Below are positions 21,344-60,347 of a stretch of DNA of 64,000 nucleotides, in pieces. The notes under the pieces were generated by a model that was given only the letters and a program-made list of their open reading frames with translations, had not been told where the DNA came from and did not search any database. Within the stretch, counting starts at the first letter, position 1. Each line of letters starts with the position of its first letter. The translations under genes and the position numbers were made by a program. Source of the stretch: Actinomyces qiguomingii (GTDB lineage Bacteria; Actinomycetota; Actinomycetes; Actinomycetales; Actinomycetaceae); contig NZ_CP025228.1 in assembly GCF_004102025.1 (NCBI RefSeq), positions 1,364,001 through 1,428,000 of the forward strand. The letters run 5' to 3'.

Positions 21344-21369
21344 GTTATTGGTGCTCCACCTGCGCTACA

Positions 21370-21407
21370 CCGGTCGGGCCCGAGACCACGGTGTGGGGCC
21401 CGACCGG
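21370..21407. terminator. Perfect 12-bp GC-rich hairpin between rmlA and rmlCD
   Basis: CCGGTCGGGCCC (21370-21381) pairs perfectly with GGGCCCGACCGG (21396-21407) around a 14-nt loop. It is about 70 nt downstream of the rmlA stop on the reverse strand. Stability suggests a terminator or attenuator reducing read-through from rmlA into rmlCD. No T-tract follows. Confidence 0.6.
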
Positions 21408-21475
21408 GCGTGAAATACATCGTGCACGATTAGCGGGCGAACAGTGAGCCCGGTGCGCGGCGGTGCGGATCGGCA

Positions 21476-22348
21476 TTAGTGCCGGACACGCTCGAGCAGT
21501 CCGAGAAGATACTGGCCGTAGCCCGACTTGACCAGCGGTTCGGCGCGCTCGCGCAGGCCGTCGTCGTCGATGAAGCCCATGCGCCAGGCGACCTCTTCCG
21601 GGCAGCCGATCTTCATTCCCTGCCGGTGCTGGACTGTGCGCACGAAACTGGTGGCGTCGGCCAAGGAGTCGAAGGTGCCGGTGTCCAGCCAGGCGGTACC
21701 GCGAGGAAGTACCTCCACGCTGAGTCGGCCGGCCTCCAGATAGGCGCGGTTGACATCGGTGATCTCATACTCGCCGCGTGCCGAGGGCTCAAGGCTCTTG
21801 GCGACCTCCACCACGTCATTGTCGTAGAAGTACAGGCCGGGCACGGCGTAGTCGGACTTGGGATGGTCGGGCTTCTCCTCAATGGAGATGGCCTTGAAAT
21901 CGGCGTCGAACTCAACCACGCCGTAGGCGGTAGGGTCTGCGACCTGGTAGGCGTATACGACTCCACCCTCGGGACTGGTGTTTCGACGCAGGCGCGTGCC
22001 CAGGCCGGTGCCGTAGAAGATGTTGTCTCCCAGCACCAGAGCGGCCGGCTGGTTGCCGATGAACTCCTCTCCCAGCACGAAGGCCTGCGCCAGTCCGTTG
22101 GGGACCTGCTGCACCTTGTAGTCCAGGTTCACGCCGAACTGGGAGCCGTCGCCGAGGAGCCGTTTGAAGGTGGCCTCGTCGCCGGGAGTGGTGATGACCA
22201 GGATGTCCTCGATCTGCGCGAGCATGAGGGTGCACAGGGGGTAATAGATCATCGGCTTGTCATACACCGGCAGCAGCTGCTTGCAGGTTGCCAGAGTGAT
22301 CGGGTGCAGTCGTGTGCCGGAGCCGCCGGCCAGAATGATTCCTCGCAT
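21476..22348 (-). CDS. rmlA: Glucose-1-phosphate thymidylyltransferase
   Basis: This enzyme makes dTDP-glucose from dTTP and glucose-1-phosphate, the first step to dTDP-rhamnose. At 290 aa it has family length. The N-terminal [14 protein letters not shown] signature, [16 protein letters not shown] and the later VLGDNIFYG are visible. ATG 22348 begins the conserved sequence; ATG 22366 is possible, and neither has a strong ribosome-binding site. It is on the same strand as rmlCD but separated by a structured 407-bp gap. rmlB (dTDP-glucose 4,6-dehydratase) is not in the window. Confidence 0.95.
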
Positions 22349-24811: not shown

Positions 24812-25129
24812 GTGTGGAACATCCTCGGCGACGGGCCGCTCGAGCGGTCCGATGACGCCGACGACGAGGCGCTCCTCCTTCTGCTCGGCGACGACGATCC
24901 TGATGAGGGCCCGCTGGCCTGGCAGGAGCGCGCGTTGTGCGCTCAGACCGACCCGGAGGCCTTCTTCCCTGAGAAGGGAGGCTCCACCCGCGAAGCCAAG
25001 CGCGTGTGTGCCTCCTGTGAAGTCCGCGAGGAGTGCCTGGAGTACGCTCTGGCCAACGACGAGCGCTTCGGGATCTGGGGAGGACTGTCAGAGCGCGAGC
25101 GGCGCAAGCTCAAACGGCGCGCTGTATGA
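24812..25129 (+). CDS. whiB2: WhiB-family iron-sulfur regulator (WhiB2/WhmD-like)
   Basis: The 105-aa protein has the four cluster-binding cysteines Cys43, Cys66, Cys69 and Cys75 (C-x22-C-x2-C-x5-C). The GIWGG turn (87-91) and a basic tail RERRKLKRRAV follow. WhiB proteins hold a [4Fe-4S] cluster and act on transcription with the primary sigma factor. WhiB2/WhmD is linked to septation and cell division. The position next to manA, TIGR03089, DUF5719 and DUF3499 genes supports the WhiB2 assignment. GTG 24812 follows GAAGGGAAG. Its stop overlaps the next gene start (ATGA). Confidence 0.92.
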   Translation: MWNILGDGPLERSDDADDEALLLLLGDDDPDEGPLAWQERALCAQTDPEAFFPEKGGSTREAKRVCASCEVREECLEYALANDERFGIWGGLSERERRKLKRRAV

Positions 25130-28100
25130 GTCGGGCGGGAAGCGCCACACAGCAGCCTGCCCCCGGCGGAACCCTCGCGGTCCTTGTTTCAGCCGGGGTC
25201 ACCCCTTATCTGCCTAGAACCCTGCGGGCCCTGGCTGATCAGGTCGTGGCCCCGGATGTGCTATTGATCGTGGACGTCGCTTCGCGCGCCAACGGGCTCG
25301 GCGACGGCACTCCCATAGAGGAGGCGGTGCTGGACTCCGGTGTCGACGCCGTTGCCGCCGTGCGCGTGGTGCACGCCCCCGAGGCAACGGGCTTCGGCGA
25401 CGCCGTTAAACGCGGACTGAACAAATATGCCGACCTGATCGCCAAGGGCAACCGCAAGCGGCGTCGTACAGATGCCGAACACCGTTCCGGTTCCGGCAGT
25501 GCGGGCTCGGCGGACGGCTCCATGACATCATCCGGACAGCTCACCGGTCCAACCGGTGCCATGTCACCGATCTCTGACACCGAGGTCCGCCGCGTCGCCA
25601 GCACCGACGTGCCCCCGGCCGACAACTCCGACGGCGCCTGGCTGTGGCTGCTGCACGACGACTCCGCTCCCGAGCCGGACTGCCTGGGGCGCCTGCTCGC
25701 AGCCGTCCACACCGCCCGCTCCGTCGCCCTGGCCGGTCCCAAACAGGTTGACTGGGACCGACCACACGAGCTGTTGGAGGTGGGCCTGCGCACAACCGCT
25801 TCCGCCCGTCGCGCCAACGACGTCGTTGAGGGGGAGGTCGACCAGGGCCAGCACGACGACCGCTCCGATATGCTCGCCGTCGGCACTGCCGGGGCGTTGA
25901 TCAACCGCGTGATCTGGGACCAGCTTGATGGAACCTCCCCCGCCTTCCCGGTCTTCGATGACGGCCTGGAACTGTCCAGGGCCGTGCGCCTCGCCGGGCA
26001 CCGCGTGGTGGTGGTGCCCAATGCGGTCATCCGGCACCGGCGCGCTGGCTACCTGGGCCTGCGTCCGGCGCAGCAGGCCCGTGACTCGCACCGGCTCGGC
26101 CGCGGACACCGCTCGGGAAGCTCCTTAGATCCGGCGCCAGCCAGCGCCATTGCCCAACCCGATCCGGATCGGTCCTTCTGTGCCCGGCGCATCGCCCAGC
26201 TCACCGCATGGGCGACTTTCTCCGCCCGGCCGGTGTGGGTCCTGCTGGCCTGGTTTGTGTTGCTCGGGCTGGCGCGCGCCTCCTGGCGACTGTTGACTAA
26301 GACGCCTGCCTTGGCCCGCGATGAGATGGCCGCTGCGCTTGCGGTGGCCCGCGCAGGTGCCACTATTCGCCGCGGACGCAAACGTCTGGCGGAACACCAG
26401 ACCGTGCGCCGCTCCGTGCTAGCCGAGCTTTATATCAGCGCCGCCGACATCCGCGCCGCGCGCCGTGATCGGCGTCGCCAGGAGCGTGAGCGTGCCGCCC
26501 GCGAGGCCGCTCGCAGTGAACTGGAACTGCGCGAATTGGCCGTCTTGACCAGGCGTCGGCGTGTCACCCTAGCAGGCATCCTGTTGGTGGTGGGAGCCCT
26601 CGGCGCAGTGGGACTCTCGCAGGTCCTGGTCGCCCGCGCGGTGACCGGTGGCGCCCTGCCCGGCCTGGGGGCCGATTGGCGCGAGCTGTGGGACGCCGCC
26701 TGGTCCACCTGGGCCGCTTCCGGCGATGGCTACCCCGCGGCGCTGAATCCCTTGCTGGCCGCACTCGTCCCGCCCCTGGTGGTCGGATCATGGCTTGGGA
26801 TCGACGGCGACGCCTTGGTGCACATTATGCTGGTTCTGGCGTTGCCATTGGCAGCCCTGGGAGCCTGGTACGCCGCTGGCACCGTGACCCGCAACAACTT
26901 GCTGCGCGCCTGGGCTGCCGGCGTGTGGGCGCTGGCGCCGGCGCTGCTGCTGGGAGTCGGGCAGGGGCGGCTAACCGCCGTAATCGTGCACCTGACATTG
27001 CCGTGGGCGTTGACTGCGCTTGCTCGGGCCGTGGGGGCGGACCGCCGCGACGTGGTCGTATCTGGAATGGTTGGCGCCCGTCATGCCAGCCAGCAGGAGA
27101 AGGACGAACTCGACCAGTTCGCCTCCGCCCGTATTGAGGATCTGGCCGAACTGGCCGACCAGGCCGAAGCCGCGAACCCCGCCGATGATGCGGAGGTCAC
27201 CGCGACCGGAGTCTCCGAGGAGGCCGTGATCGCCGTGTACTCCGACGCCGTCGCGGACGCGGCCATGCTCGATCCAGATGCCCCCGTTCTGAAACCTGCC
27301 ACGGAGCCCGAAGCCGCCGATCCGGAGCACACCGGAGCATCCCGGGGCCCCGGAACCCCGGAGCAGGATCCCCAGGACTCCACCGCTGCGCAGGGTGTTG
27401 AGGCCGCCGCGGCTGCATCCGACTCCGAGGCCAACGATTCGGAGACGACTGATCCCGACGACGCCGAGTCCCATGGCTCTGCAATTCCCGCCGCTGCGGC
27501 GCCCCCGCCCACCCCGGAGAGCTACGGACCCGGTTCACCCACCGCCGCCGCCGTGGCCGGGCTTCTTCTCAGTGTCATAGTCGCCGCCGCCCCTGTCACC
27601 GCCGCACCGATCGTGATCGGCCTGATCCTGTTGGCGGTGTGTGAGCGCCGCAGCGCCCTGCGGCTGCTGTTCACGCTCGTGCCGGTGGTCGCCACCGCCA
27701 TCCCCGCCTGGTGGCGCGCCCTCCGGCTAGCCCAGGCCGCGGAGGCAAGCGAGGCCCTGCGCTACCTGTTCACCGACGCCGGCCTGCCCATCACCGCCGC
27801 CCCGCCCAGCACCATAGAGACCCTGCTGGGCATGCCCGTAGACGTCGAGTCCCTGGTCGCCGACCCGGCCATTGCACTGACCGCCAAGATGCTGCTCGCA
27901 GTCCTACCCGCCGCCGCCCTCTGCGGCCTACTGACCGCGGGTCACCGCGGCAACCGGGCCCGGGCTGGATTCCTGATAGCCCTGGGCGGGCTGGGCCTGG
28001 CCGCCGCCGCCACACGCGTCATCACCGCAGTCGGCACTCTGAGTGACGGCACCGGCTCCGTGACCGTCACCGGCTGGGCCGGCATCGGCGTCTCCTTCGC

Positions 28101-53993: not shown

Positions 53994-54473
53994 ATGCGCG
54001 TCTATCTTCCCGCCACCGCCCGTGACCTGGCCGCTCCACGGATCAGTCCTCGCACCGGCCACGCCGTCACGCCCACACTGGCCGGAGCGTTTCCTGAGGA
54101 GGATCAGGAGGGGCTGGAGGTATCTGCGAGCCTGTGCGCTGCCGACGCCTCGGTGATGCTGCTGGCCGTACCGGGCGCGGAGGCGGAGGTAGACCGGCGC
54201 GTGGTGATCGCCGCGGATGTTGAGGACACCCAGGTGTGGGAGGTGCCGGTGACGGGAGAGGTGCTCCCGGGCACCGTGGAGGTGACAGAACCGGTGGAGT
54301 GGGACGCCGTCGCGGCGCTGCTTGTGGATGAGGCGGACGCCGAATCCGATGTGCGCGCCGCCCGCACCGGGGATGAGGCCGCCTTTGAGCGGGCCGCCGA
54401 TGCGGACCTGCTGTGGTACGACATATCTGAGCGCAGCGTGCTCGCACAAGAGTTGGCCGCTTCCCCGCGCTAG
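53994..54473 (+). CDS. DUF6912 family protein
   Basis: The protein is 159 aa, acidic and soluble. It starts MRVYLPATARDL and has the segments SASLCAADASVMLLA and RRVVIAADVEDTQVWEVP, matching an actinobacterial family of unknown function. No catalytic or binding motif was found. Its stop overlaps the sbcC stop on the other strand (TAG at 54471-54473 against CTA at 54470-54472), leaving no room for a terminator between the genes. Confidence 0.7.
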   Translation: MRVYLPATARDLAAPRISPRTGHAVTPTLAGAFPEEDQEGLEVSASLCAADASVMLLAVPGAEAEVDRRVVIAADVEDTQVWEVPVTGEVLPGTVEVTEPVEWDAVAALLVDEADAESDVRAARTGDEAAFERAADADLLWYDISERSVLAQELAASPR

Positions 54474-57400
54474 GAGGCTATTACCCGCAGCTTGGACCCG
54501 GAGGGCGAACGGGTGATTTCGATGCGGTCGGCCACCTGCCGGCGTAGCTCCTCCACGTGCGAGACGATGCCGACGGTGCGTCCGCCGGCCTGTAGACGGC
54601 CCAGCTCGGCCAATACATTCTGCAGGGTCTCGGGGTCCAGGGAACCGAAGCCCTCATCAATGAACAGCGTCTCCATGCTCACCCCACCGGACTCGGCCGT
54701 GACCACGTCGGCCAGGGCCAGGGCGAGGGACAAGGATACGTAGAAGGTCTCCCCACCGGACAGCGTCTTGGGGTCGCGCACACCGGAGTCGGAGAAGCGG
54801 TCGATGACACCGAGCCCCAGTCCGCGGTCGGTGCGGCTCCTGGAGCCGGCCTCGTCGTCAACATGTACGAGCTCGTAGCGTCCCGCGGACATCTGGGACA
54901 GGCGCTGGTTGGCGAATACGAGCACTTCCTTGAACCGCTCCAGCAGCACCCAGGTGGCCAGCGGGGTGGCGGAATCGTTGTAGCCGGAGGCCACGGCTAC
55001 GACCTCCCACAGCGCGGCGGAATCCTCGACCACGGCGGTTAGGGCGGTGGCGGCGTCGTTGACCGCGTCGGCGGCCTCTTGCACCCGGTTAAGGCGGGAG
55101 CGGGCCTGCTCCCGCGCCGCCATTGCCGCGTGGTAGGTGGATTCGGCGGTGGCCAGCCGCCGGCGCGCGCCCTCGACATCGGCGGTTTCCTGGCCGGTGA
55201 GGGATGCGATGGTCTCATCCTGGGTCAGGCCGTGCCGGACGCGTTCACGCCGTGCGGCGGCCTCGGCGACCTTCTGTTCCAGGGCGGCTAGCTCGGGGCC
55301 GGTCAGATAGGCCGCGCTCGCGGCAGCGGCGGAGACGAATCCGGCCTGGGCGATGGCATCTGCCAGTTCGGCACGGTCGTGCACGACGGTTCTGGCGGTC
55401 TCGGATGTACGGGTGAGCAGGTCCGCCAGCTGCCCGGCGGCCTCGGCGGCCTCGCTTAGGGCACGCATGTGTGCGGCGACGGAGTCGTGCCCTCCCTGTG
55501 CGGTGCGGCAGCGCTCCCGATCTCGGCTGAGGGCTTCCACCTGGGAGTCCAGCCGGGCACGGTCCCGTGCGAGCTCGGCACGCCGCTGGTCGAGCTGGTC
55601 ACGCAGCTGTTCCGTGACGCGGGTGAAGTCACCGAGGCGTGACTCCAGCTCCGGCACCGGTGCGGCGGCCTGCTGCGCAGCATCGAGTTCACGCTGCGCA
55701 GCTTCCAGTGCTTGGATGAGCTCAGCCGTGCTGGCCTGCCCGGCGGCGGTGCGGGCCGTGGTCTGCTCGGCCACCAGCGCCTCGTGGCTCTTGACCTGCG
55801 CCGCCAGCTCTGCGTCGGCCTGGCGCTGCGCCGCCTCCGCGGCCTGGACGTCTGCGCGGGAGACGGTTCCTTGACCGGGAACGGCGGGGGCGGGATGCTC
55901 GGTTGAGCCGCATACCGGGCAGGGCTGCCCGGCCACGAGTTCGGTGACGATCGAGCCGGCCGTGGCACTGATCCAGGCCTCGCGCTGCTGGGAGACGAGC
56001 GCGTTGGCGTCTCGTGCCGCGGCAGTGGCGGCCTCGACGGCGTCATGCGCGGCGGCGATGCGGGCGGTCAGGGCATCGGCGCGTCGGGAGGCGTCGAGAC
56101 GTTCGACGCAGGCGTCCCGTTGCACGCCCAGCTCCGGCAGTCTCGCCTGTGCGGCGCGCGCAGCGGCCAGGGACGTCTCCAACTCGACCTGCAACCCGGG
56201 CCGTTGGGCCAGCTGGGCGGCGACATCTTCGGCATTGTCCTGATCGGCGGCGAGACGCTGCTGTGCGGCCTCCGCCTCCTGGGTGCGGGAGGACAGTCCA
56301 TTCTCCAACTCGACGACGGCGCTGAGAGTCCCCGCCCGGGTGCGCAGGGCGTGGCTGCGGGCGGTAATGGTGCGGGCGGACTGCGTGAGGGCGTCCAGGA
56401 CTGGGAGCGCCATGGGGTCATCCGGGCCGTCGGGGCTGATGGAATCGGCATTCGGAATCAGCGGAGCGAGCTCGTTCAGGGACGCCAGCGCCGGCTCGTA
56501 TTCGGCTGCGGTTATCGTGGCCGCGGCGTCGGCGTTCGTTTGGCGTGAGCAGTTGTCGGTCTCTGGCGCGTCGGTGGGGCTTTGCGGGCCGGGCACTGAC
56601 TGCTCGGCGGCAGGGGGCCGGTTCTCTTCGAGTACCGCAACGGCCAGCTCACGGGCCTCGTGGGCGGACCGGGCTGAGTCCTGCGCGCGGGTCAGCACGG
56701 GGAGGACGGAGGTGGCCCGGCGGGCCGCGTCGGCGCGCGCGGCATCGGCAGCGTCCTGAGCGGCGCAGGCGTCGAGCTGCTGCTGCTCGGCCACCAGGCG
56801 TGCGCGACGATCCAGACGGTCCTGCAACGCGATGGCGGCGTTGACGGCGTCGGCCGCCTCCTGACGGGTGATGCCGGCCATTTCCAGGGCCTGGCGCGCC
56901 GGCTCGGCTGCTGCTTGCGCGGCCTGGACGGCGGCGTGACCGATGGATGCGATGGCTTCGGCATCAGGCACGCGGGCGGCGACGAGGGCCTCCAGCCGTG
57001 TGGCGGGAGAGGGCGGCAGCGTGGCTGGCGTACCGCTGTCTCCGGGAGAGCTGGCATGTGCATCGGGGGATTCGACGACTTCGGCGTTGCCGGCGGGGCC
57101 GTCCCCGGGGGAGGAGCTGGCGGCGTCGCCTGGGGCGGCGGATGCTTCGGGCTCGGCGTCGTGAAGCAGGGGTGCCAGGACCTCGGCGCGGGCGCGCAGG
57201 GTCTGACGGGCCGACTCCGCCCGCTGCTCCAGGGATCGGCCGCGGCTGCGCAGCGCCTCCTGCATGCGATCGAAGATCGAGGTGCCGAATACGTCGCGCA
57301 GCAGGTCATGACGCTGTTTGGATTCGGCTCTCAGGAACTGGGCGAACTTCCCCTGGGGAAGGACGACGGTCTGAGTGAACTGAGTCCGTTTCAACCCCAC

Positions 57401-57838
57401 GATACGGCGGAGCTCGGAGTCCACCTCGCCGACGCGCGTGATCGGCTCGCTGAGGGCTTTCCCGTCCGGGGCGGACAGCCGCCACAGCTTCACGGAGGCG
57501 TTCTGCCTGGTGGTTCCGCTGCCACGCCGCTTGGGGCGCATGTACTCGGGCGTGCGCGCGATGCGGTAGACCCCGGCGGAGGTGGAGAAGACGAGTTCGA
57601 CCTCGCTGGGAGCGGTGGGAGTCACCAGTGTGGAGCGGATGCGTTGTTTGGAGGAACCGTCGGAGTCGGCCACATCCCCGTAGAGTGCGAAGACGATGGC
57701 GTCGATAATGGTGGTCTTGCCCGAGCCGGTGGGACCGGTTAGCAGGAAGCGGCCGGAGTCGGCGAAGCGGTCGAAGTCGATGGTCTCGGTGCCGGGGAAG
57801 GGGCCCACCCCCGTGATGGTTAGGCGGTGCAGGCGCAT
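54470..57838 (-). CDS. sbcC: SbcC exonuclease subunit (SMC-like ATPase)
   Basis: The 1122-aa protein has Walker A near residues 35-43 (GPTGSGKTT), the signature LSGGETFYVSLSLALALAD and Walker B LFIDEGFGSLDPE. Between them are two long Ala/Glu/Arg/Gln-rich coiled coils with a central zinc hook, GQPCPVCGS, near residue 639. SbcCD is a nuclease that opens DNA hairpins and processes ends. The start overlaps sbcD by one nucleotide, so the two are co-translated. Confidence 0.95.
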   Translation of the reverse strand: MRLHRLTITGVGPFPGTETIDFDRFADSGRFLLTGPTGSGKTTIIDAIVFALYGDVADSDGSSKQRIRSTLVTPTAPSEVELVFSTSAGVYRIARTPEYMRPKRRGSGTTRQNASVKLWRLSAPDGKALSEPITRVGEVDSELRRIVGLKRTQFTQTVVLPQGKFAQFLRAESKQRHDLLRDVFGTSIFDRMQEALRSRGRSLEQRAESARQTLRARAEVLAPLLHDAEPEASAAPGDAASSSPGDGPAGNAEVVESPDAHASSPGDSGTPATLPPSPATRLEALVAARVPDAEAIASIGHAAVQAAQAAAEPARQALEMAGITRQEAADAVNAAIALQDRLDRRARLVAEQQQLDACAAQDAADAARADAARRATSVLPVLTRAQDSARSAHEARELAVAVLEENRPPAAEQSVPGPQSPTDAPETDNCSRQTNADAAATITAAEYEPALASLNELAPLIPNADSISPDGPDDPMALPVLDALTQSARTITARSHALRTRAGTLSAVVELENGLSSRTQEAEAAQQRLAADQDNAEDVAAQLAQRPGLQVELETSLAAARAAQARLPELGVQRDACVERLDASRRADALTARIAAAHDAVEAATAAARDANALVSQQREAWISATAGSIVTELVAGQPCPVCGSTEHPAPAVPGQGTVSRADVQAAEAAQRQADAELAAQVKSHEALVAEQTTARTAAGQASTAELIQALEAAQRELDAAQQAAAPVPELESRLGDFTRVTEQLRDQLDQRRAELARDRARLDSQVEALSRDRERCRTAQGGHDSVAAHMRALSEAAEAAGQLADLLTRTSETARTVVHDRAELADAIAQAGFVSAAAASAAYLTGPELAALEQKVAEAAARRERVRHGLTQDETIASLTGQETADVEGARRRLATAESTYHAAMAAREQARSRLNRVQEAADAVNDAATALTAVVEDSAALWEVVAVASGYNDSATPLATWVLLERFKEVLVFANQRLSQMSAGRYELVHVDDEAGSRSRTDRGLGLGVIDRFSDSGVRDPKTLSGGETFYVSLSLALALADVVTAESGGVSMETLFIDEGFGSLDPETLQNVLAELGRLQAGGRTVGIVSHVEELRRQVADRIEITRSPSGSKLRVIAS

Positions 57839-59253
57839 CAGCGGTCCTCCTTGAGCTGGGCGTCGGCGCGGGCGGCGTCGTAGGCCGCGGCCATGATGGC
57901 GTGCTGGGCCCGGGTGGGGCGGTGACCGAGCATCTCGGTCAGGAAGCGGTCGGCCACGTCCACCGGGTCCGAGGCGCGGGTGACTGTGATGGTTTCGCGC
58001 TCGGTCTGCTCGGGACGGGTGTGGGAGAAGGCCAGCAGGTTGGGGAACCGTTCCTTGAGCTGCGCCATGGTGCCCGGGAGCATGGGGCCGGTGAGTTCCA
58101 CGCGCACCCAGTCGCGGGTGTAGACCGCATTCGCAGGGGCGAGGAGCTGATCGAGTGTGCCGTGCAGCGTGGTGGCCCGGTAGGGGGTGGGGGTGGGGAT
58201 CCGTTCCATGCGGGTCACGCCGGTGGGGCCCAGTTCCAGCAGCACGGAGGACTTGGTGGCGTCGGCCTCGGGGAAGGAGAAGGGCAGTGGGCTGCCGGAG
58301 TAGACCAGGCGCGGGCGTGTGGGGGCGTGCGCGGCGAATGGGTACGCATCGGCTCCCGGAGCGCTGGCTGTGGCGGTGTCGCCCCCGGCGGTGGGGAAGT
58401 GCAGCTCTTGAGGGCGGTGCAGGTGGCCGAGGGCCACGTAGTCGAGCCCGCCGGAGGCGTTGGCCAGGGGCGAGCCGCCGAGCGTGGTGAACACGCCCGC
58501 CGGCACGCAGTCCACCCCGCCGACGCGGATGTCCCGCTCGGAGTCGGGGGTCGCCTGCCCGCCGACGACGAAGGCGTGCGCCATGGCCAGCGCGGGCACC
58601 CTGGACGCGTCGTCAGCACGCCGCTCAGCCAAGTCGTGCGCCACCAGCCGCAGCGCTGCGCAGACCACCGCCTCGTGGCTGCGCGGCAGCAGGGCGGGGC
58701 CGCCGGCGGCTGGGGACGCGGCTGCATCGGAGGGACCGGGGAACGCAGCCGGGTCGGCGGGGGAGTCGGCGTCGGCCTGCGCCTCCGGTTCGACCGGCCC
58801 CTCCCCGAGGCGTGCGGCCAGCAGGGGTGGCAGGGACTCGCGGGCGGCATCGGGGTCGAGGTAGGGCAGGGCGTAGACGTACAGGCCGGGATGACCGGCG
58901 GCGTCGGGGATGATGACGGGCCGGTCGACGTCGGCCACGCGCACGCGCAGGTCCAGCCCCTCACGCAGCAGGGCAGCGGCGAAGCCGAGCCGCTGGGCGG
59001 AGTCGTGGTTGCCGGGGGTGAGCACCACGCGCGTGCGGTCCGCCAGGCGGCACAGGGTGTCGTCGAGCAGGCGGACGGCGGCGGTGGGCGGGATGGCGCG
59101 GTCGTAGACGTCACCGGAGATGACGACGGCATCGACGCCCTCGGCCTTGACCACCTCAATCAGGTGCTCGGCGAAGACGGCCTGGGCGTCATCGAGCACC
59201 CGGCCGTGGAAGGTGCGCCCGAGGTGCCAGTCGGAGGTGTGGAGGATCCGCAT
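57838..59253 (-). CDS. sbcD: SbcD nuclease subunit
   Basis: This 471-aa calcineurin-like phosphoesterase is the catalytic partner of SbcC. Metal-binding motifs are SDWHLG (Asp8, His10), ISGDVYDRAIPP and TPGNHDSAQRL, followed by the histidine motif ALGHLHRPQ. A Pro/Ala-rich insert near 170-200 is unusual but not disruptive. ATG 59253 begins the conserved MRILHTSDWH and follows GAGAGG. The first 24 codons and 57 nt upstream are duplicated at 59992-60120, on the far side of the hicAB genes. Confidence 0.95.
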   Translation of the reverse strand: MRILHTSDWHLGRTFHGRVLDDAQAVFAEHLIEVVKAEGVDAVVISGDVYDRAIPPTAAVRLLDDTLCRLADRTRVVLTPGNHDSAQRLGFAAALLREGLDLRVRVADVDRPVIIPDAAGHPGLYVYALPYLDPDAARESLPPLLAARLGEGPVEPEAQADADSPADPAAFPGPSDAAASPAAGGPALLPRSHEAVVCAALRLVAHDLAERRADDASRVPALAMAHAFVVGGQATPDSERDIRVGGVDCVPAGVFTTLGGSPLANASGGLDYVALGHLHRPQELHFPTAGGDTATASAPGADAYPFAAHAPTRPRLVYSGSPLPFSFPEADATKSSVLLELGPTGVTRMERIPTPTPYRATTLHGTLDQLLAPANAVYTRDWVRVELTGPMLPGTMAQLKERFPNLLAFSHTRPEQTERETITVTRASDPVDVADRFLTEMLGHRPTRAQHAIMAAAYDAARADAQLKEDR

Positions 59254-59310
59254 GCCCGCAGCCTCTCACAAGCCTCCGACACGAATTCGAGGTGCTTAGC
59301 GGGTGGCGTC
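59182..59310. repeat. 129-bp direct repeat, copy 1 (sbcD start region)
   Basis: Covers codons 1-24 of sbcD and 57 nt of its upstream sequence. It matches 59992-60120 at an exact 810-bp offset with three differences (59191, 59231 and 59255). It flanks the hicAB cassette on the sbcD side. Confidence 0.95.
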
Positions 59311-59375
59311 TAGGCGGCGCATGCCATGTCGTCAGTAAACGGCCTTATCGAGGTCGGTCGGCAGACCCTCCACTG

Positions 59376-59750
59376 TCAGCCTGTGGCGGTGAGCTGGGAG
59401 ACCCGGCCGCGGGAAATGCCCATGATGGCGGCGGTGTCGGAGACGGATAAGCCTTCGGCGCGCAGAGCGAGGGCGGCTTCTCGCCAGGCAGCGGTCGCTT
59501 CTTCCTGCAGCGCCTTGGCACGGGCAGCGGTCTCTTTGGCAGCACGAACCTGGGCGAGGGAATCGACTTCGGGGACAATGTCGATCTTCCAGCTGGAGTG
59601 GTCGGTGGTTTCGTCGACGGTATCGAGGTAATCGACGACCTGCTGGCGTGCCCGGTCGAGGTGGGTCACCTGCGTGTGGTGGTCGTCGTCGAGCTCAAGC
59701 TCCCAGCCACCTGACCAGCGGGTGGCCATAACCGTAAGGCTCTGGTTCAT
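59376..59750 (-). CDS. hicB: HicB-like antitoxin with C-terminal helix-turn-helix
   Basis: This 124-aa protein has a small N-terminal HicB-type beta-alpha domain (VMATRWSGGWELELDDDHHT), an Ala/Glu-rich helical linker and a C-terminal helix-turn-helix (LSVSDTAAIMGISRGRVSQL). HicB proteins neutralise HicA and repress the operon. It starts 4 nt inside the end of hicA, the usual toxin-first order of this system. The next sequence downstream is 65 bp of unique DNA and then sbcD copy 1. Confidence 0.8.
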   Translation of the reverse strand: MNQSLTVMATRWSGGWELELDDDHHTQVTHLDRARQQVVDYLDTVDETTDHSSWKIDIVPEVDSLAQVRAAKETAARAKALQEEATAAWREAALALRAEGLSVSDTAAIMGISRGRVSQLTATG

Positions 59751-59938
59751 GCCTTGCTCCTCTCAATCGCTCGCAGCGCGTCGCGGGTCACCTTCGGTGA
59801 GACCTCAGGGGTGCGGGTGATCACGACGATCTCTGAGCCGCAGCGCCAGACTTCGTGGTCACCTTTGCCTCGGCGGGCCGTGAAGCCCGCCTTGATGAGC
59901 AAGCGCGCCAGATCGCGATACTTCATTGGCTTCGTCAT
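59747..59938 (-). CDS. hicA: HicA-like mRNA interferase toxin
   Basis: The 63-aa protein has the HicA double-stranded-RNA-binding-like fold (YRDLARLLIKAGFTARRGKG) with the likely catalytic His28 in GDHEVW. It would cleave mRNA when free of HicB. ATG 59938 overlaps the stop of a 42-codon leader ORF (59935-60063); an internal ATG 59926 is an alternative. No clear Shine-Dalgarno precedes ATG 59938, so coupling to the leader could matter. Confidence 0.83.
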   Translation of the reverse strand: MTKPMKYRDLARLLIKAGFTARRGKGDHEVWRCGSEIVVITRTPEVSPKVTRDALRAIERSKA

Positions 59939-60063
59939 CGGAGTTTACCGCTAGTAATCGGCTTCCGTCTAGGCGGGCTAAACGGGTGGGTCTGGGCGTC
60001 GTCGAGCACCCGGCCGTGGAAGGTGCGCCCGAGGTGCCAGCCGGAGGTGTGGAGGATCCGCAT
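59935..60063 (-). pseudogene. Truncated sbcD copy acting as a 42-codon leader to hicA
   Basis: The duplicated sbcD start reads 24 codons with one substitution, Asp8 to Gly, which destroys the metal-binding SDWH motif. Then 18 unrelated codons follow, ending TSGKLR. The TGA at 59937-59935 overlaps the hicA ATG (ATGA). It has sbcD's own start codon and upstream 57 nt, so it may be transcribed and translated. It cannot encode nuclease. Confidence 0.8.
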
Positions 60064-60120
60064 GTCCGCAGCCTCTCACAAGCCTCCGACACGAATTCGA
60101 GGTGCTTAGCGGGTGGCGTC
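59992..60120. repeat. 129-bp direct repeat, copy 2 (sbcD start region)
   Basis: Second copy of 59182-59310; 126 of 129 bases are identical. One difference is synonymous (codon 21), one gives Asp8 to Gly and one lies 2 nt upstream of the start codon. Confidence 0.95.
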
Positions 60121-60192
60121 CAGCCTGCCTGCGCCAAGGAGGGGTGAAAATGTCCGAGATCGACTAAAACGCACCCGGGGCGGTGAGGCGCG

Positions 60193-60211
60193 ATTCCAAA
60201 ATCGTTGGAAT
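60193..60211. promoter_or_regulatory. 7-bp inverted repeat ATTCCAA/TTGGAAT upstream of the OmpA-domain gene
   Basis: ATTCCAA (60193-60199) and TTGGAAT (60205-60211) form a perfect dyad. The half-site TCGTTGGAAT (60202-60211) recurs near 60322. An AT-rich TATAGATATATT lies at 60303-60314. Together these suggest the promoter/operator region of the downstream gene; no regulator was recognised. Confidence 0.4.
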
Positions 60212-60347
60212 GACGCGGGTCTCCGGGATGAACTTCCGCCCAACAGGGTCGTTCGTGCCGAATTCGGGCAGTCGCGGTGCGGCCGGACAGGGCGTGTTAT
60301 GGTATAGATATATTGACGTTGTCGTTGGAATCTTTGAAGGTGCATCC

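Follow-up and report, generated by a model that had tools for sequence, protein, structure and literature searches.

How did a gene pair resembling a HicAB toxin-antitoxin unit come to be flanked by two copies of the sbcD start, and what might the second copy do there? The question is raised by a stretch of 64,000 nucleotides (hereafter the window; contig NZ_CP025228.1 of Actinomyces qiguomingii, positions 1,364,001 to 1,428,000) from an Actinomyces-like chromosome of 3.99 Mb; the genes and motifs of the window given below with coordinates lie on the minus strand, and only the 11-bp repeat is given without a strand. Other genomes and loci are referred to by G and L numbers. The explanation that we favour, with rather more confidence than doubt, is that hicAB was carried beside sbcD by recombination, that the sbcD start was duplicated, and that the second copy of it serves as promoter and start for hicA.

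sbcD occupies 57838..59253 (471 aa, start at 59253) and matches the Metallophos and SbcD_C families above cut-off. Direct comparison of copy 1 (59182..59310, the first 24 sbcD codons and 57 bp upstream) with copy 2 (59992..60120, a truncated sbcD start upstream of hicA) gave 126 identities in 129 positions, with mismatches at 59191, 59231 and 59255. The same repeat was recovered by a repeat finder at 140 nt and 95% identity and by blastn at 135 nt and 96.3% (E 4e-59). With limits of at least 45 nt, at least 85% identity and a spacing of 350-2500 it is the sole direct repeat in the window, and 62 background loci (337,371 bases) yielded three pairs within the same limits, of which those in L042 and L050 look by eye like TPR-repeat coding sequence and the third is in L044. 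The window has the long direct repeat that marks an insertion with long target duplication. hicA and hicB sit between the two copies on the sbcD strand. The first-pass annotation had described two sbcD-start copies around a hicA-hicB cassette lying between them, with the start and upstream region of sbcD left intact, and on all of this our comparison agrees with it. Neither a transposase nor an insertion sequence was seen in the ~680-bp insert, which holds hicAB and otherwise only mechanically called open reading frames, the latter without a family scan, and no recombinase gene was recognised among the open reading frames of the insert.

The first gene of the pair (59747..59938, 63 aa) scores 26.3 bits with the HicA Pfam profile (E 8.3e-06), which misses the curated cut-off of 27, and we therefore call it HicA-like. 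Its predicted model has a helix, three strands and a helix, with a predicted local distance difference test score (pLDDT) of 90.7. A Foldseek comparison of this model with the PDB found no match at E <= 0.001; among the matches are 1whz (E 1.3e-03, template modelling (TM) score 0.74), chain 6g26_E of a HicAB complex (E 0.081, TM 0.70) and chain 5yrz_B of a toxin-antitoxin complex (E 0.067, TM 0.72). The model and its matches point to a HicA-type fold in the predicted product. The gene in the hicB position (59376..59750, 124 aa), the antitoxin candidate, matched only helix-turn-helix and sigma-region-4 families in the family scan. The pair thus resembles type II HicAB systems in that hicA precedes hicB, with a 4-nt overlap, and in the HicA fold, and differs from them in that HicA falls just below its Pfam cut-off and that a helix-turn-helix, but no HicB domain, was recognised in the second product. 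It may have HicAB toxin-antitoxin activity.

What was duplicated appears to be a promoter together with a start codon. The accessible part of PMC8151990 gives the PafBC motif as TGTCGG-N10-TA-N3-T, and the duplicated block holds a TGTCGG-N10-GAnnnT-N6-ATG unit that is conserved before sbcD in the genus. In copy 1 it lies at 59260..59281 (TGTCGG 59276-59281, a 10-nt spacer, GAGGCT 59260-59265, 6 nt, ATG) and in copy 2 at 60070..60091 (TGTCGG 60086-60091, GAGGCT 60070-60075, with the ATG at 60061-60063). All 41 native sbcD rows, from the window and from 40 of the 48 other genus genomes, have GAnnnT-N6-ATG upstream of the gene, and TGTC stands ten bases above GAnnnT in 36 of them, the exceptions being G021, G014, G019, G041 and G035. 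Across the 49 genomes of the genus set, the canonical form TGTCGG-N10-TANNNT-N6-ATG had 103 matches versus 1 for the reversed pattern. Family scans of 30 canonical-motif loci, with one member scanned per cluster and two singles left unscanned, assigned eight to RadA, four to UvrB, four to a PD-(D/E)XK nuclease, and one each to a RarA-like protein, DnaG and a RecQ-family protein; two clusters (of 4 and 3 loci) had no family match, and two frames were shorter than 40 aa. Two WYL genes lie side by side in the host genome, one of them with an HTH_PafC match of 106.9 bits versus 32, and PafBC thus appears to be encoded. We read sbcD as a PafBC-type gene. With the -10-like element only 6 nt before the ATG a leaderless mRNA is to be expected, so that sbcD is probably leaderless and its promoter and ATG would form one unit. 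The sequence CGACACGAATTCG, considered as a hic-specific attachment site, was rejected as such; it is one form of this promoter, with 28 matches versus 0 for the reversed sequence in the 49 genomes.

In copy 2 this unit now stands before hicA. A leader frame of 42 codons (59935..60063; 24 from sbcD and 18 from cassette DNA) begins at its ATG and ends with a TGA that overlaps the hicA ATG. The unit is intact both in the window and in A. ruminicola DSM 27982 (G038, locus L022), where hicA likewise follows; there the leader has 41 codons (frame by eye), and in both genomes it ends on the hicA start (ATGA in the window, TAATG in A. ruminicola). No Shine-Dalgarno sequence was seen by eye before hicA. 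The hicA genes of G018, G040 and G021 appear to lack a leader, their -10-like elements lying 6 nt from the start codon; in the window, the promoter-like remnant before hicA (59942..59971: TAGACG 59966-59971, 18 nt, TAAACT 59942-59947, then ATG), read by eye against these three genomes, leaves a gap of 3 nt. G045, which has a second sbcD start with no hicA behind it, reads TCTCGG in place of TGTCGG and has lost the ATG. In one of the two G009 copies (Pa) the unit is intact and the leader stops ~22 nt short of a TPR gene. Where the first-pass annotation says only that hicAB gains the other copy, we see in this outer copy more than a by-product of insertion, since it places a genus-conserved promoter-like unit and start before hicA. 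We infer that this capture of promoter and start would wire hicAB to DNA damage.

A shorter repeat near the inner edges of the copies proved less informative. The 11-bp sequence CGTCTAGGCGG is indeed present at 59307-59317 and 59966-59976, as had been stated, and an 11-bp match between 60-nt edges has a probability of 0.0012 in Markov sequences. We examined it as an insertion scar and rejected that reading: it is probably not a scar, because in A. ruminicola no more than 8 of the 11 positions are shared by the two sites and because the right copy falls on the -35-like part of the hicA promoter-like region. As a separate observation, the interval from hicB to copy 1 (59307-59375) contains pieces resembling the hicA promoter region in altered order.

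How old is the association of hicAB with sbcD? Matches to the hicB family (E <= 0.001) were found in 18 of the 49 genus genomes, and in eight hicB-family DNA, mostly decayed, adjoins sbcD. hicA is present with it in the window, in G038 and in G021, and G014 has no more of hicA than its end; G045, G047 and G013 retain a remnant of hicB codons 1-72 and G011 one of codons 1-36. Three more close relatives, in G018, G007 and G040 (68-71%), lie away from sbcD, and the remaining matches are 32-52% identical. In an rpoB tree of 30 genomes the window groups with G038, G045, G029, G011, G047 and G013 (100/100), and G021 and G014 stand apart together; G029, within this clade, has no hicB-family DNA at sbcD. 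A. ruminicola has the same arrangement as the window, with 91% identity over 1,224 bp and the same junction on the hicA side; beyond copy 2 it has a gene with TPR, AAA and NNH1 matches, and in G042 and G006 a TPR-like coding sequence directly follows the sbcD upstream region (by eye). The distance between sbcD and bacA is below 200 bp in 16 of the 38 genomes in which it was measured, which we take as the empty, ancestral order, and G045 and G029 form a filled and empty pair at sbcD. The cassette between its two copies and the empty sites agree with the insertion that the first-pass annotation had proposed. As an event fresh to this strain it does not stand: since A. ruminicola shares the arrangement and eight of the 49 genomes hold hicB-family DNA beside sbcD, hicAB at sbcD appears to be no recent insertion here. 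The four starts cluster by genome. The two copies differ at 3 positions within the window and at 5 within A. ruminicola; between the two genomes copy 1 differs at 5 positions and copy 2 at 10, which points to copies homogenised within genomes, or remade.

Other repeats occur at or near hicB in these genomes. Upstream of sbcD, G021 (L026) has an internal 230-bp duplication of hicB/hicA, and G014 (L032) has 59-bp repeats (88%) ~540 bp apart. In G007 (L070) a hicB without recognised hicA is flanked by duplicate 3' ends of tRNA-Thr(CGT) (1428-1497 and 1974-2043), the right one being part of the complete tRNA gene.

G045 is informative on how such an event may proceed. Its sbcD is closest to that of the window (92-96%), and its DNA from 61 to 950 bp upstream of sbcD is closest to G047 and G013 (87-94%; 65% to the window). 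The upstream cargo consists of the hicB remnant and a flavin-reductase gene. From the second start outward, G045 is 93% identical over 1.9 kb to its sister species G029, in which this flank adjoins sbcD directly. A DUF4276 and AAA_21 gene pair lies past the second start in G045 (L027, 3196-5001), and in G029 this stretch adjoins sbcD on its upstream side. The G045 allele can be read as a recombinant that combines donor-like cargo with the flank of the sister species, with a putative 6-bp microhomology at the join, where G047 and G029 have CATGCC in common. The G045 pattern suggests that cargo and a start copy can arise together, with homology at the sbcD end and microhomology at the join opposite.

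Start copies are also found around quite different genes. A query of the 40 N-terminal SbcD residues found matches in 130 of 159 genomes and revealed truncated extra starts in the window, G038, G009 (two), G025 and G101, to which DNA searches added G003 and G045; a second match in G157 is a 405-aa frame, apparently full length, which we took as a paralogue. Apart from these, neither the 20-kb regions inspected in 20 genomes nor the shorter ones at 40 loci contained an sbcD-start copy; G014 has a short repeat beginning 22 bp above the ATG. The two G009 copies are surrounded by TPR genes that have NB-ARC/AAA matches, and in G025 and G003 the truncated starts lie among similar, putative TPR genes. 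G101, from another genus of the family, has a 201-bp duplication of the sbcD start (94.5%) around an ABC-transporter cluster, with an insert that encodes a 134-aa protein without family match, an ABC-transporter ATPase and two further genes; its copies are at 21349-21549 and 25063-25263 of the contig (G101:C4, L215). The sbcD-side edges vary from event to event (-75, -1, -127, -81 and -174 from the ATG). As controls for specificity we used radA (matched in 154 of 159 genomes) and uvrB (155 of 159). Second radA matches occurred in G018, G040, G119 and G090, and no second radA start was found in the radA neighbourhoods (6-8.5 kb) of G018, G040 and G119. A second uvrB match in G011 was rejected as a start copy, being one gene split by a frame change. 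In G018 the uvrB start is duplicated (84 bp, 95%), and 26 UvrB codons are fused in frame to a Cation_efflux protein (228 aa); the copies are at 1321-1404 and 2026-2109 of G018:C41 (L216), with the fusion upstream of uvrB. Among the three genes compared, start duplication is thus not confined to sbcD. Copies without hicAB, which the first-pass annotation had named as a sign against its reading, are present in G009, G025, G003 and G101; insertion survives this finding, and what falls is the tie of the duplication to hicAB, given the other cargo in these four genomes and the uvrB case in G018. Start duplication is not peculiar to hicAB.

Based on these comparisons we propose that recombination brought hicAB to its place beside sbcD, that sbcD itself provided the anchor on one side, and that the other side was closed by an illegitimate join inside the sbcD 5' end, which would have duplicated the sbcD start around the cassette. 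Copy 1 would still start sbcD. Copy 2 would supply the cassette with a start codon and a PafBC-type promoter, one that responds to DNA damage independently of LexA and RecA; its transcripts would begin with the 42-codon leader, made of the SbcD start and cassette DNA, and the overlap of the leader stop with the hicA ATG would allow coupled translation of hicA. The order of events, damage-inducible expression, leaderless transcription and translational coupling are all proposed from sequence comparison.

Several observations weigh against this explanation. None of the genomes examined has the window's own right flank without a cassette, and the event is therefore reconstructed from relatives. 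No second copy accompanies the hicBA that lies beside sbcD in G021, nor the hicB remnant of G011, G047 and G013, so that the presence of hicAB at sbcD may predate the duplication; the greater likeness of the copies within than between genomes implies conversion, which blurs both age and order. The G045 microhomology is taken from relatives, G045 itself reading CGTGCC. The G045 cargo is 94% identical to G047 and G013, no more than rpoB (93.7-94.2%), and for this reason its transfer is likely but short of proved; the sbcD of the same G045 pair, unlike the cargo, drops to 74%. With regard to the promoter, the sbcD -10 element is GAGGCT, and since it begins with G the strict TGTCGG-N10-TAnnnT is lacking and the sbcD promoter is best described as a variant of the published PafBC motif. 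The overlap of leader stop and hicA start has a chance of ~0.24 in random sequence and is therefore only suggestive. The start copies in G003, G025 and the second G009 copy (Pb) have decayed, showing that a captured promoter can be lost again.

A tandem duplication with later partial deletion would also yield an identical end product. In that case hicAB already lay upstream of sbcD, the DNA from codon 24 of sbcD to a point above hicA was doubled rather than inserted, the outer hicAB was lost, and the second start would be a neutral leftover. Such a course agrees with G021, G014, G047, G013 and G011, where hicBA or its remnants adjoin an sbcD that lacks a second start, and with the 230-bp internal duplication in G021. 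We nevertheless consider it distinctly unlikely: copy 2 of A. ruminicola is followed by a TPR-type gene, as sbcD is in G042 and G006, and so looks like an old sbcD edge; start copies surround other genes with other edges; and neither the window nor G038 shows a trace of a lost outer hicAB past copy 2. As another alternative, insertion could have been site-specific or transposon-like, by Campbell-type integration of a hicAB circle carrying or targeting the sbcD start. A circle with a start copy would yield the same direct repeats, and hicB between tRNA-Thr 3'-end copies in G007 is what integrases leave; however, the insert has no recognised recombinase, and the varying edges and unrelated cargo of the different events imply that there is no constant attachment core, which makes this most improbable.

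The insertion route may also be as we propose while the second start has no role, hicA using its own promoter and the motif being kept by gene conversion alone. The copies are homogenised within genomes, hicA retains a -35/-10-like region, and the leader overlap could be chance; set against this are the -10-like element of the window at 3 nt from the hicA ATG, where G018, G040 and G021 have 6 nt (by eye), and the decay of copy 2 in G045, where no hicA follows. We regard a second start without a role as tenable, though short of probable.

If hicA expression does follow copy 2, a damage signal independent of LexA would control HicA, and toxin-antitoxin systems would thereby be linked to DNA damage in Actinobacteria. 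Capture of the sbcD promoter and start suggests that a toxin-antitoxin pair without a transposase could settle beside a repair operon and gain regulation in a single join. A leaderless promoter carries its ATG with it, so that a copy must create either a leader peptide or a fusion, and these would be a searchable signature of copied leaderless promoters. In G013 a BrnT-like gene (27.6 bits versus a cut-off of 34.5) follows a PafBC-like start, TGTCAG-N10-GATCTT-N6-ATG; the leader that begins there has 32 codons, and its TGA overlaps the ATG of the BrnT-like gene. This gene adjoins a distant hicAB that shares 55 bp of upstream sequence with it (L086 / L186, G013:C6), and G029 has this distant hicAB without the left copy. 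Start-duplicating insertion could be a recurring route in Actinomycetaceae that wires toxin-antitoxin, TPR/NB-ARC and other cargo to DNA-damage control, with the BrnT-like gene as a second, independent instance, a generalisation that we offer tentatively and think rather unlikely as it stands. Were it true, cargo would gain an inducible start through a leaderless promoter-plus-start unit, and the repair gene would lose nothing.

Downstream of sbcD lies sbcC (54470..57838, 1122 aa, AAA_23 and SbcC_Walker_B matches). sbcDC is not essential in E. coli, which speaks against the label of an essential-repair operon that the locus had been given. Beyond copy 2, a 122-bp segment (60151-60272) recurs in diverged form near sbcD, in the same orientation in G047 and inverted in G011 and G045.

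In the literature searched, from which most subscription papers were out of reach, no report of this arrangement was found under hicAB with sbcD, under toxin-antitoxin systems with PafBC (judged by title) or under HicAB with damage (among 10 of 117 matches), nor one of a toxin-antitoxin unit behind a copied PafBC-type promoter. The event itself would be of a known kind, and the new element would be the regulatory gain from the duplicated promoter and start. Insertion with long target duplication was reportedly described by Nobusato et al. in 2000 for restriction-modification genes of Helicobacter pylori. The promoter resembles the PafBC / RecA-NDp promoters described for mycobacteria (PMC8151990, PMC8223512, PMC11804915, PMC6789036) in TGTCGG, the 10-nt spacer and the -10-like element; the canonical form stands here before radA, uvrB and other repair genes, and a PafC-like protein is encoded. 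It differs in a -10-like element that starts with G and an ATG that follows after 6 nt. Homology-facilitated illegitimate recombination, as far as the accessible text of PMC3240628 describes it, likewise combines homology at one end with an illegitimate join at the other, and the G045 alleles fit this, although here the process is deduced from present-day alleles. The closest parallel in kind is insertion with long target duplication, known for the H. pylori restriction-modification genes (PMC1643837, PMC3031569, in the parts available), with which the locus shares a small unit, no recognised transposase, long direct repeats of variable length and empty sites in relatives. The locus differs from those cases in what is carried, hicAB in the window and, among relatives, TPR genes, an ABC-transporter cluster and a cation-efflux gene, and in its duplicated block, which is the promoter and start codon of a repair gene and may drive the cargo.

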